Assembly: GCA_905235855.1 (NCBI GenBank)
Contig: CAJONE010000004.1
Location: forward strand, 1-64,000
DNA: 64,000 nucleotides
Reading direction: 5' to 3'
From: an uncultured Bacteroidales bacterium
Lineage (GTDB): Bacteria > Bacteroidota > Bacteroidia > Bacteroidales > P3
Of this stretch, positions 37,718 to 41,358 are shown one piece after another. Below the pieces are notes generated by a model, which ran no database searches, was not told where the DNA came from, and saw only the letters and a list, made by a program, of their open reading frames with translations. A program made the translations under genes and the position numbers. Numbering within the stretch: the first letter of the stretch is position 1; every line of letters begins with the position of its first letter.

Positions 37718-37805
37718 GGAGAGGTGGGTGAGTGGCTGAAACCAACAGTTTGCTAAACTGTCGTACTCGATTAGGGTACCGGGGGTTCGAATCCCCCCTT
37801 CTCCG
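37718..37805 (+). tRNA. tRNA-Ser(GCT)
   Basis: Cloverleaf with long variable arm; anticodon stem ACAGT/ACTGT-type loop with GCT; GGTTCGAATCC T-arm. Confidence 0.92.
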
Positions 37806-37913
37806 CAAAAGACAAAAGGCTTGAAAAAGCCTTTTGTTTTATGAGTGAAAATCGCAGTGTGACCAATTCCTGCGACACAACAGCTCATAAAGAGTTCTTA
37901 CCCAAACAGGATT

Positions 37914-37987
37914 CGGGATATAGTACAGTTGGTTAGTATGCATGCTTTGGGAGCATGAGGTCGCCCGTTCGAGTCGGGCTATCCCGA
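37914..37987 (+). tRNA. tRNA-Pro(TGG)
   Basis: CGGGATA/TATCCCG acceptor; CATGC-TTTGGGA-GCATG anticodon arm. Confidence 0.93.
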
Positions 37988-37999
37988 CAAAGAGAGAGA

Positions 38000-38073
38000 G
38001 GCCCCGTAGCTCAGCTGGATAGAGCAACTGCCTTCTAAGCAGTAGGTCCTGCGTTCGAATCGCAGCAGGGTCA
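38000..38073 (+). tRNA. tRNA-Arg(TCT)
   Basis: ACTGC-CTTCTAA-GCAGT anticodon arm; CTGCG-TTCGAAT-CGCAG T-arm. Confidence 0.93.
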
Positions 38074-38082
38074 CTAACTAAA

Positions 38083-38114
38083 AGCCGGTATGAAAACGAT
38101 ACCGGTTTTTTTTT
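38083..38114 (+). terminator. Terminator of tRNA cluster
   Basis: CCGGTAT-gaaaacg-ATACCGG followed by T9. Confidence 0.85.
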
Positions 38115-38274
38115 TACAATTCTGTTTCCAAAAAAAGGAGTAATTTTGCGTTTGTTTACGAGAGTAAAGCCAACATTGTATTGTATCCAACCATATTAAG
38201 ATAACACAATGATCACAGAAAATAGATTGTAAAAAAAATAAATAACAATAGCGTTTGCTATTTATTCGGTAACG

Positions 38275-38419
38275 GCTCCTTGAACCTGAGAAATTCAATT
38301 GAAAGTTACTAGTTGAATAAATAATAAGCGCCTACAGTTGCGTAGGCGGATTTATTTACAGTAACGGGTATTTCTCAGGACCTAAGGAGCGTAGATAAAA
38401 AAGTCTGCGCTCTTTTTTT
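38275..38419 (+). other. Nested-hairpin leader element B with overlapping terminator, upstream of RM3
   Basis: GCTCCTT/AAGGAGC, CCTGAGAAAT/ATTTCTCAGG, GTTACT/AGTAAC, AATAAAT/ATTTATT, CGCCTAC/GTAGGCG, then GAGCGTAGA/TCTGCGCTC plus T7; its 5' arm overlaps AAGGAGC. Confidence 0.75.
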
Positions 38420-38459
38420 GTCCGAGAAATACCATAGTCTTTTCCGCATAAAAGCTTTC

Positions 38460-38481
38460 GCCATAATGCAAAACTTATGGC
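38460..38481 (+). promoter_or_regulatory. Inverted repeat containing the RM3 methylase start codon
   Basis: GCCATAA (38460-38466)/TTATGGC (38475-38481); ATG at 38477. Confidence 0.55.
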
Positions 38482-39367
38482 AATCGAAAATGATTTTCAT
38501 CCAATTTGGGATAAAGTGTATTTCGGGAGTAGCACTTCAATGCTGGAGATTCCCGACGAAAGTATACACCTTATTGTAACATCTCCGCCTTACTATAACG
38601 TCAAGGATTATTCCAAAAACGGTTATCAGACATTACAGCACTCGAAAAGTAGGAGCGAGGATATCGGAGCATATAATACATTCGATAGATACATTCAGTT
38701 GCTTCTTTCCGTGTGGAAAGAATGCGAAAGAGTGCTTAAGCCTAACGGTAAGCTTTGTGTAAACGTGCCGTTGATGCCAATGTGCAAGCAAGATCTGAAC
38801 ACGCATTACAACCGCCATATCTATGACATTCAAAGTAGTATACAGCAATCTATCTTGTCTGGCACCCATCTGTACCTGATGGATTTGTACATCTGGAACA
38901 GGATTAATTCATCAAAACGGCTGATGTTTGGAAGTTATCCATATCCGCGGAATTTTTATGCACAAAACACAACTGAGTTCATCACAGTGTACGTGAAAGA
39001 CGGTATGCCGGAGAAGGCAAGAATGATTGACAAAGAGCGAAGCAAGATTTCCGAGCAAGAGTGGACCACTTTCACAAAGCAAATTTGGGACATACCTGTT
39101 CCCAACAAAAGCGATATAGCCTATGGAAAACATTCAGCTATTATGCCGGAGGAGATAGCATATAGGTGTATTCGTCTTTTCAGTTTTGAAAATGATGTGA
39201 TCCTTGATCCTTTTGCAGGCAGTGGCACGACACTGAAAGTGGCAAAATCACTCAACCGCCACTACGTGGGATACGAACTGTACGAACACTACAAACCAAT
39301 TATTCAAGCAAAACTACAACTGGCAGACCATGCGTTACAACCGGATTTATTTGGCAGACATTTTTGA
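38477..39367 (+). CDS. DNA methyltransferase (SPPYYN type), RM3 M1
   Basis: IHLIVTSPPYYNVKDY...DVILDPFAGSGTTLKVA. Confidence 0.9.
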   Translation: MAIENDFHPIWDKVYFGSSTSMLEIPDESIHLIVTSPPYYNVKDYSKNGYQTLQHSKSRSEDIGAYNTFDRYIQLLLSVWKECERVLKPNGKLCVNVPLMPMCKQDLNTHYNRHIYDIQSSIQQSILSGTHLYLMDLYIWNRINSSKRLMFGSYPYPRNFYAQNTTEFITVYVKDGMPEKARMIDKERSKISEQEWTTFTKQIWDIPVPNKSDIAYGKHSAIMPEEIAYRCIRLFSFENDVILDPFAGSGTTLKVAKSLNRHYVGYELYEHYKPIIQAKLQLADHALQPDLFGRHF

Positions 39368-40109
39368 TTTCCTGAATTCGCTGGACGATTCGTCAGCTGA
39401 CTTGGTTATAGCCGATCCGCCGTACAATATGGCAAAGGCGGACTGGGATAAATACCAATCCGAAAAGGAATATTTTAATTTCATGTTTCAATGGATTGAC
39501 GCACTACTTCCAAAATGCAAAACAACAGCGTCCTTGTATTTCTTTAACAATGCATATAACTCGGCAATCCTACTTTATCACCTTAGACAAAGGGAACTAA
39601 TACTTCGAAACTGGATAACATGGTATAAGAAAGACGGTTTTAGCTCCACAAGAAAAAGGTATGTAAATACGCAGGAGACAATACTGTTTTATACCATGTC
39701 GGACAAATACACTTTCAACTTCGATGATGTGCGTATCCCATACATATCTACTGAAAGGATGGTTCATGCGGCAAAAAAGGGATTACTAAAGAACGGTAAG
39801 CGATGGTTTCCTAATGAAAAAGGGAAACTCTGCAATGATGTGTGGGAAATTGCATCACAACGACACAAAGTAAAAGTTGACGGAAAAGTACAAAAACCAC
39901 CTCATCCAACAATAAAACCAGATGAGATGATTGAAAGGATGATATGTGCAAGTAGCAACGAGGGCGATTTGGTTCTTGACCTGTTCAGCGGCAGCGGAAC
40001 TACAAGTAAGATTGCCAAGAACACTAACAGACAATTTATTGGATGTGAGGCTAACGAAGAGTATATTAGAATATTAACAAATAACGGATTGACCTATGAC
40101 AAATTATGA
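39330..40109 (+). CDS. DNA methyltransferase (DPPYN type), RM3 M2
   Basis: ADLVIADPPYNMAKADWD...LVLDLFSGSGTTSKIA; overlaps M1. Confidence 0.9.
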   Translation: MRYNRIYLADIFDFLNSLDDSSADLVIADPPYNMAKADWDKYQSEKEYFNFMFQWIDALLPKCKTTASLYFFNNAYNSAILLYHLRQRELILRNWITWYKKDGFSSTRKRYVNTQETILFYTMSDKYTFNFDDVRIPYISTERMVHAAKKGLLKNGKRWFPNEKGKLCNDVWEIASQRHKVKVDGKVQKPPHPTIKPDEMIERMICASSNEGDLVLDLFSGSGTTSKIAKNTNRQFIGCEANEEYIRILTNNGLTYDKL

Positions 40110-41358
40110 AATTCTTAAAAGTATAGAGAACGTGGCCAACCAAAACCTGTTTATCAATTACATTATTGACAGAGTGGAGGATGATAATTACCGTGGTATT
40201 CAAATTTCTCAGCACAATCGACTTACTTATAACTACTGCAAGACATTAATCGACGTCATATATAAAACCGTTGGCGACAAATCGTTTATTATTCATGTGG
40301 GGGACGACAACGGGACCCGTCAATTGGAAGCAGAATATTACTACAAGATTGTGAGCAAAATAAAAGAAAGTGTGGGGAAGGGTACGATCAACTCCATTAA
40401 AAAAAACACTTTTCCAGATTTAGCACGTGCAGGATTGATTGACAGGTTTGATAGAAATAAGGACAGAATTGTCGATGCAATAACGAACGTTGAAAATAAA
40501 GTGAAACAGCATCGGAGTTGTGTTTATAAAGTGTCTCTGTCAAAATTAGGTCTTAAGTTTGCTACCGCAAAAAACGAATTTGAAAGACGGAAATACTTTA
40601 CAGATACAGTGGATTGTTTGACTAAAAACGCAGCCACGGAACTTGTTGAACTACTAACCACGGATGAACGATTTGAAACCATTGACATCTTGGAGTTTAT
40701 GTTTATTCTGTCTGATAGCAGGAAATGCGTTAAATATAATGATAAGCTAATGTATCTTTCCGAATATCGGAGGCTAACTGATTCACAGAGAAATCAAGTT
40801 TATAGTCTTTTGAAAGAATACTGTGACCCTAAAAGAAACGTCGGTACAAAGGTTCATGCACGTGACTTCAGCAATTGGAAAAACGAAAGTCAACAGATTT
40901 TTGGGCTGCTCGGTAACTCAACCTATTTTAAGGTGATAAACGGACAGTTAATGCTTAATGATGGGAATTACGGCTTGTTCACTCAACCTGCAAAACGAAA
41001 ACAAAAACCGAGAGACGAGTATTTTAATTATCACAACATCGAAAAACAACAAAATTATGAACTTCACCACATCATACCTTTCAAAAGGGCTATCAACAAG
41101 AAAGATGCCCAATACATTGACGATAAACGAAATTTGATTTATTTGTCATCCGAAAAACATGCAGAGTTCACAACAAGTGGAAATATAAATATTAGAGCAA
41201 GTTTCCGTGTACCTATGATGTCTTTTTTACGCATAAACGATATTGAAAACATCATAACAGTTGATTTAAACAAAAAAGAAGCGTTATTATCAACACAGAG
41301 AATAGATGAAATTGTGACATACAATAAACAACTTTTGCAATTGTTTTATTCTGCTTGA
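40096..41358 (+). CDS. HNH-type restriction endonuclease of RM3
   Basis: NYELHHIIPFKRAINKKDAQYIDDKRNLIYLSSEKHAEFT; overlaps M2. Confidence 0.8.
   Translation: MTNYEILKSIENVANQNLFINYIIDRVEDDNYRGIQISQHNRLTYNYCKTLIDVIYKTVGDKSFIIHVGDDNGTRQLEAEYYYKIVSKIKESVGKGTINSIKKNTFPDLARAGLIDRFDRNKDRIVDAITNVENKVKQHRSCVYKVSLSKLGLKFATAKNEFERRKYFTDTVDCLTKNAATELVELLTTDERFETIDILEFMFILSDSRKCVKYNDKLMYLSEYRRLTDSQRNQVYSLLKEYCDPKRNVGTKVHARDFSNWKNESQQIFGLLGNSTYFKVINGQLMLNDGNYGLFTQPAKRKQKPRDEYFNYHNIEKQQNYELHHIIPFKRAINKKDAQYIDDKRNLIYLSSEKHAEFTTSGNINIRASFRVPMMSFLRINDIENIITVDLNKKEALLSTQRIDEIVTYNKQLLQLFYSA

Follow-up and report, generated by a model that had tools for sequence, protein, structure and literature searches.

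A region at about 38247-38433 on the + strand of the window (the whole stretch of 64,000 nucleotides analysed here, from an uncultured Bacteroidales bacterium) probably encodes a cis-acting RNA leader that would control a restriction-modification (R-M) operon by a three-strand attenuation switch. The computed folds of this RNA are conserved and exclude one another, the RNA lies at a fixed position before a gene, and no second promoter is recognisable.

The leader and the operon in the window

The initial annotation had proposed that GCTCCTT (38275-38281) pairs with AAGGAGC (38384-38390) to close a long nested hairpin, that the GAGC of the right arm (38387-38390) is also the first part of a terminator arm, and that this terminator, with T7 behind it, ends 57 nt before a coding sequence. 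We found all of these at the same positions, with a rod-like hairpin and a CDS start at 38477. The observation was correct, yet it understates what is present; the element extends from about 38247 to 38433, beyond the 38275-38419 first reported. Comparison with dinucleotide shuffles gave z values of -6.05 for 38240-38440 and -5.44 for 38262-38403, and none of 200 shuffles was as good in either case. The features of the region are as follows.

38141-38148, + strand: candidate -7 box TAATTTTG, the sole TAnnTTTG match in 38111-38250; a start would fall at about 38155
38247-38262, + strand: H0, 5' hairpin AATAGC-GTTT-GCTATT, seen with 3 bp or more in 71 of 86 diverse members
38259-38267, + strand: 5' strand of P0, TATTTATTC, with its partner GAATAAATA at 38315-38323; P3b is excluded by this pairing
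38275-38281, + strand: left arm of P1, GCTCCTT (strand 1)
38280-38298, + strand: H1, alternative hairpin TTGAA/TTCAA with the left arm of P2 as its loop, 86.1% paired
38285-38294, + strand: left arm of P2, CCTGAGAAAT (strand 1); P2 is 98.2% paired, with compensation at 8 of 8 pairs
38305-38323, + strand: left strand of P3, GTTACT (38305-38310) and GAATAAAT (38315-38322)
38329-38348, + strand: P4, apical hairpin CGCCTAC/GTAGGCG, 95.7% paired, with compensation at 8 of 8 pairs
38350-38365, + strand: right strand of P3, from the diverse alignment
38366-38383, + strand: strand 2, the H2 stem GGGT/ACCT around the right arm of P2, ATTTCTCAGG (38370-38379)
38384-38390, + strand: right arm of P1, AAGGAGC, its final four bases common with T1
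38387-38412, + strand: intrinsic terminator hairpin T1:T2, GAGCGTAGA (38387-38395) and TCTGCGCTC (38404-38412), found by pattern scan
38413-38419, + strand: U-run, T7; most members have a T-rich run 3' of T2
38420-38433, + strand: strand 3, GTCCGAGAAATACC, 3' of the U-run and, in the MFE fold, partner of strand 2 (38367-38381)
38477-39367, + strand: gene 1, DNA methyltransferase (N6_N4_Mtase; PF01555, E 1.5e-46; PADLOC MTase_II, E 4.3e-90)
39330-40109, + strand: gene 2, DNA methyltransferase (N6_N4_Mtase; PF01555, E 8e-57)
40096-41358, + strand: gene 3, type II restriction endonuclease (PADLOC PDLC03506, E 4.9e-58)

The operon is a type II R-M system with two methyltransferases and one endonuclease. 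The H0 stems vary among members (e.g. AAAAGC[GTTA]GCTTTT), and H1 is present in the MFE fold of a longer transcript of the window.

Three tRNA genes (Ser-GCT, Pro-TGG and Arg-TCT; 37718-38074) lie directly upstream of the leader, and this cluster is a possible insertion spot for the R-M operon.

Covariation of the rod

The diverse alignment comprised 87 members (86 distinct sequences). The rod formed by P1-P4 and H2 (41 pairs) was paired in 93.4% of the cells of this alignment, which was fitted to the rod model and thus leans towards the rod, as compared with 67.0% for shuffled alignments and at most 42.6% when the partners were slid. Compensatory (two-sided) changes were seen in 40 of the 41 pairs, and the covariation score was 0.712 for the rod and 0.221 for shuffled alignments. 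Most of our covariation counts are from alignments fitted in this manner; compensation in P1 and P2 was plain already in the first MAFFT alignment, built without structure.

A search for covariation in relatives had been suggested as a check of the GCTCCTT/AAGGAGC pairing, and its outcome was strongly positive. P1 is 94.4% paired in the 87 diverse relatives with compensation at 7 of its 7 pairs, and is therefore paired more than by chance. P3a and P3b are paired in 94.3% and 94.9%, respectively, of the same alignment, and H2 is 89.7% paired, one of its pairs changing from U-A to C-G in 25 sequences. G-U pairs are tolerated throughout, and there are columns of P4 and P0b in which GU/UG is a main type.

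Helices that compete with the rod

A second conserved set of helices, composed of P0/P0b and T1:T2, is incompatible with the rod. Its 5' strand (GCGTTTG...TTTATTC) partners the left strand of P3/P4, with P0 and P0b, which extends it, paired in 90.0% and 92.4%, respectively, and T1:T2 is 77.4% paired across the diverse members, with double changes at all 7 pairs. Taken jointly, P0/P0b and T1:T2 are 86.6% paired, against 82.3% when shuffled, with compensation at 16 of 21 pairs; each measure exceeded that of 499 or more of the 500 shuffles. The 3' arm of the terminator, T2, is also able to partner the right arm of P4 (88.8%). The two sets exclude each other at two places, P0 against P3b and P1 against the foot of the terminator.

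When the RNA ends at the U-run, its energy is -56.9 kcal/mol with P1 enforced and -57.7 kcal/mol with the terminator enforced, a gap of 0.8. The leader thus has the conserved alternative pairing that excludes the terminator in an attenuator, as the two structures have bases in common, both covary and their energies are nearly equal. The overlapping stems beside a terminator had been taken for an attenuator-type layout, and this interpretation is supported, the stems being real and conserved in relatives.

An intrinsic terminator precedes the CDS in the window (38384-38419), and some subclasses are without the hairpin. The foot of the terminator overlaps P1 by only 2-4 nt, so that the inner terminator can still form, in part, beside P2, and the default state may be termination regardless of the rod. 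Classes that precede genes for secreted proteins (e.g. L240-L254) lack T1:T2 and retain the T2 sequence and the U-run; a simple terminator model therefore does not extend to all of the family.

In the flavobacterial-type members (L258-L276) the U-run is followed by a hairpin, in many cases TCACT/AGTGA. Its loop (e.g. GGGACT, GGGTTT or GGAACT) is complementary to AGTCCC, AAACCC or AGTTCC in T2, an apparent covariation judged by eye only.

A third strand beyond the U-run

The sequence that follows the U-run, GTCCGAGAAATACC (38420-38433), is complementary to strand 2, GGTATTTCTCAGGAC (38367-38381). The computed probability of P1 depended on the 3' end of the RNA and fell from 0.97 at 38403 to 0.22 at 38419 and to about 1e-5 at 38433; addition of 38420-38433 removed both P1 and P2 from the computed ensemble. 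In 91 relatives, the mean probability of P2 was 0.91 for the element alone, 0.11 when the natural 55 nt after the U-run were added and 0.87 when these were shuffled. The probability of P2 was below that of the shuffled sequence in 82 of the 91 relatives and above it in one.

Comparison of natural spacers with spacers swapped between loci showed that the mean energy of the duplex between strand 3 and strand 2 was -18.2 kcal/mol for the former and -12.8 kcal/mol for the latter. The duplex with the natural spacer was better than the swapped one in 79 of 91 relatives, and no other segment showed this to the same degree. These comparisons point to selection, in the 91 relatives, of the sequence after the U-run for the refolding of its own strand 2. 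Since only read-through RNA has such a pairing, a constitutive terminator is not expected to select it. A third strand that refolds the leader past the point of termination would be an unusual design.

Promoter

The -7 consensus of the Bacteroidetes is TAnnTTTG, recognised by sigma-ABfr (PMC7366714). No -33 box was seen with the candidate -7 box at 38141-38148. A TAnnTTTG sequence was present within 110 nt upstream of the leader in 63 of 98 relatives, when 5.2 were expected, and was found between the terminator and the ATG in none of 80 relatives, nor in the window. An independent promoter 3' of the terminator, which the initial annotation had named as the finding that would speak against attenuation, is not supported by the sequence, there being no -7 box at that place. 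With boxes upstream of the leader and none in the spacers, expression of the gene most likely requires transcripts that run through the leader. The sigma-70 scan was uninformative for the Bacteroidota phylum.

The 5' motif AGCGTTTGCTATTTATTCGG was considered as the promoter itself. This was dropped because the motif pairs within the RNA, with covariation, and the true -7 boxes are further upstream.

Extent of the RNA family

BLAST searches of related genomes returned divergent copies of the element, including a second one in the genome of the window; all of them start with AGCGTTTGCTATTTATTCGG or a near variant and have a terminator at the end. With a first covariance model (R1), built from ten of these copies, the element was detected in 107 of 120 genomes from the genus, at most 11 copies being found in one genome, and in 107 of 393 sampled genomes of the order, in 73 of 206 genera. 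A broader model (R2) matched 49 of 396 sampled genomes of the phylum. In the genome of the window, R2 matched 18 places at E<=1 and 16 at E<=1.1e-4, and the element of the window itself scored 122.7 bits (E 5.9e-26). Every named carrier in the list comes from a Bacteroidales or Bacteroidetes record; among them are Paludibacteraceae, Candidatus Limimorpha and Colimorpha, Prevotella and Porphyromonas, and rumen and horse-gut genomes are represented. One cultured carrier is Porphyromonas pasteri JCM 30531, in which the element lies at about 1522-1690 of contig NZ_BMPU01000003.1 and is followed by an EcoRI-type methyltransferase.

No Rfam 15 family was matched at the gathering threshold by the window, by 30 loci of the genus and order or by 19 loci of the phylum (L258-L276), nor by the element of the window at E up to 10, its low-scoring matches to trpB and the L20-leader being at chance level (E about 1). 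This is a large Bacteroidota RNA family without a match in Rfam 15, its alternating folds seem suited to switching R-M and other accessory genes, and an earlier description was not found within open-access papers and Rfam 15. As a lead only, a 2017 survey of 224 motifs reportedly includes a D12-methyl motif upstream of DNA methyltransferases.

BLAST of plasmids and phages gave no match to the element. The only hit on a viral contig (L217, IMG/VR) lies at a contig end and covers the 5' third of the element, after which the sequence is unrelated; it is probably a remnant.

Genes associated with the leader

Loci were also drawn by the exact 5' 20-mer alone, in order to avoid the bias of the covariance model; this sample includes near-identical loci, so that the following counts are of loci and not of independent events. 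The RNA was present in 99 of the first 100 loci, two of those being incomplete at the sequence end. The start of a gene on the same strand followed the leader at a median of 62 nt (quartiles 54-71.5) in 93 relatives, the position of a 5' leader, as in an attenuator.

The Pfam families of the 92 first proteins, which overlap, were N6_Mtase (22), MmeI_Mtase (22), Eco57I (17), EcoRI_methylase (12), N6_N4_Mtase (7), HSDR_N (7), cytosine methylase (5) and D12 (5), and PADLOC agreed with Pfam on the first genes. Most first genes of the 20-mer loci are thus methyltransferases or other defence genes; the first proteins without an obvious methyltransferase motif include single DISARM and BREX matches and two type IV enzymes. 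No methyltransferase family was in the top list for 78 control proteins encoded upstream (loci L100-L199). Defence-associated YhcG/DUF1016 nucleases were found in 8 of these 78 upstream control ORFs.

Members of the lower-scoring classes stand before small HTH genes and acyltransferases, and before genes for secreted proteins in other Bacteroidales and in flavobacteria-like genomes, often at about 50-60 nt. The link to R-M systems therefore belongs to the class of the window and not to the whole family, and the downstream genes of the whole family have no common pathway that would name a ligand.

One subclass that starts with TATTTGTTCCGACC (L032, L033, L034 and L039) precedes a small HTH gene (MQIHIG..IRDEL..). 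In three other loci (L270, L271 and L273) the element lies 225-314 nt before genes for SusC/RagA-like TonB receptors, with extra sequence between them, beyond the usual spacing. At L031 8002 (G054:C31 64479-64500), an exact copy of the 22-nt 5' motif directly adjoins the start codon of a gene for a DUF1016 nuclease and is not followed by the RNA. The next DUF1016 gene is preceded by another, partial motif, and a complete element is found 1.5 kb further on; the motif at the start codon looks like a leader that has lost its body.

Proposed mechanism and alternatives

In the attenuation switch that we favour, transcription would start about 100 nt upstream of the element. Strand 1 (the left arms of P1 and P2) would pair with strand 2 (the right arms of P2 and P1) into the rod, the foot of which would compete with the foot of the intrinsic terminator. 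Strand 3, part of it within the 3' arm of the terminator and part beyond the U-run, would capture strand 2 once it is transcribed and so dismantle the rod; the pairing of strands 2 and 3 would amount to a terminator lengthened across the U-run after RNA polymerase has passed. The terminated RNA would thus keep the rod, whereas the read-through mRNA would have a different and very stable 5' fold ending about 40 nt upstream of the start codon. Any factor that keeps 1:2 favoured until the U-run has been cleared by the polymerase would lead to expression and the transcript would otherwise end, so that a signal shifting the balance of 1:2 and 2:3 would set the amount of operon mRNA. We infer on this basis that termination at the leader is regulated. 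The possibility that H1 and H2 form P2 as a kissing loop was set aside, H1 being weak in several classes.

A tentative extension, which we regard as possible and somewhat doubtful, is that members of the window type serve as a shared control panel for operons of anti-phage defence (R-M systems of types I, II and IIG, with single DISARM- and BREX-like cases) and sense one cellular or infection-related signal. The same tentative reading would make the family a new phylum-wide class of switching RNAs, with a three-strand fold that resets after read-through.

Four other explanations were weighed against the attenuation switch. Strand 3 and the fold near the start could set the access of ribosomes, and so control translation or mRNA stability, the U-run not being a real terminator. 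The pairing of strand 3 only about 40 nt from the ATG, which is strongly selected, agrees with this, as do the classes without T1:T2 and the flavobacterial hairpin beyond the U-run whose loop is, by eye only, complementary to T2. The terminator hairpin with T7 in the window and in class A is, however, textbook-like and its arms covary, and we consider this explanation rather unlikely for them; for the family at large it is a serious alternative or addition, since some subclasses keep T2 and the U-run and lack T1. Less likely still is a gene for a trans-acting small RNA, the next gene being served by constant read-through. Such a gene would have its own promoter box and terminator, as seen here, and a compact conserved fold would suit it, as would the copy number, which reached 11 per genome in one scan. 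Against it, the element is found on the strand of the next gene and about 62 nt from its start in almost every sampled locus, the type of that gene is strongly biased and the spacer has no box from which the gene could be transcribed independently; moreover, the RNA appears to be functional past the U-run, because the sequence there seems to be selected to re-pair with the core.

It is very improbable that the pairing reflects recombination at the DNA level, with the element as an attC-like site or folded single strand for the movement of gene cassettes. G-U pairs are tolerated throughout (as in the P4 and P0b columns), there is a U-run, a promoter box upstream and a strict strand and spacing to the ATG, and the vicinity of the window showed no second copy that would delimit a cassette; these outweigh the patchy distribution, the many copies per genome, the cargo-like genes and the exact 22-nt motif that abuts a nuclease ATG without the RNA (L031), all of which such an element would explain. 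The three tRNA genes that end at 38074 could suggest a constitutive terminator of the upstream tRNA unit, without regulation. These genes are already terminated at 38080-38110 by a terminator of their own and the element precedes many genes that have no tRNAs upstream, which makes this explanation hardly credible.

Comparison with known systems

By its predicted folds, the leader would work like a three-strand attenuator that belongs to none of the Rfam families tested. Attenuators of the trp type also have successive strands, exclusive 1:2 and 2:3 pairing, an intrinsic terminator and an operon downstream. They differ in that the leader described here has no leader peptide (there is no ATG between 38251 and 38419 of the window), has a much larger conserved fold and has a third strand that runs beyond the U-run. 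Riboswitches with expression platforms share the complex conserved fold that overlaps a terminator, with genes on the same strand behind it, and the 41 covarying pairs in 86 distinct sequences form a conserved fold of the aptamer-like kind; unlike them, the leader has no Rfam match or known ligand and its downstream genes have no common pathway. 6S RNA, our initial guess from the rod shape, is likewise a long rod with internal loops. It was rejected, as the family has multiple copies per genome, is fixed to downstream genes and gave no match to the Rfam 6S or 6S-Flavo models.

Known means of R-M regulation are C proteins, autorepression by the methyltransferase and antisense RNA in EcoRI and Eco29kI (PMC3874152, PMC12707154); riboswitch or attenuator leaders were not found in the text of these two reviews. 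R-M expression is regulated in those systems, sometimes by RNA, as we infer for the present leader, but here one RNA family stands before many unrelated R-M types. Defence would then be under a shared type of control that differs from the known ones, and the question of which signal sets restriction levels would become directly testable.

Flavo-1 (RF01705), among the Bacteroidetes motifs of Weinberg 2010 (PMC2864571), resembles the present family, as do other motifs of that study, in being a multi-copy structured Bacteroidetes RNA without an assigned function. Hits of Flavo-1 were on either strand of transcripts (PMC9723704), whereas the present family has an upstream, sense position in almost every locus examined, and the RF01705 model matched neither the element of the window nor L258-L276, which include flavobacteria-like genomes. 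Gut and rumen bacteria carry this large family, for which Rfam has no model, and the genome of the window has 16 copies of it. Just downstream of one member (L090, 1605-1797) lie the Rfam motifs DUF805b and DUF805, a possible tandem of cis-regulatory RNAs.
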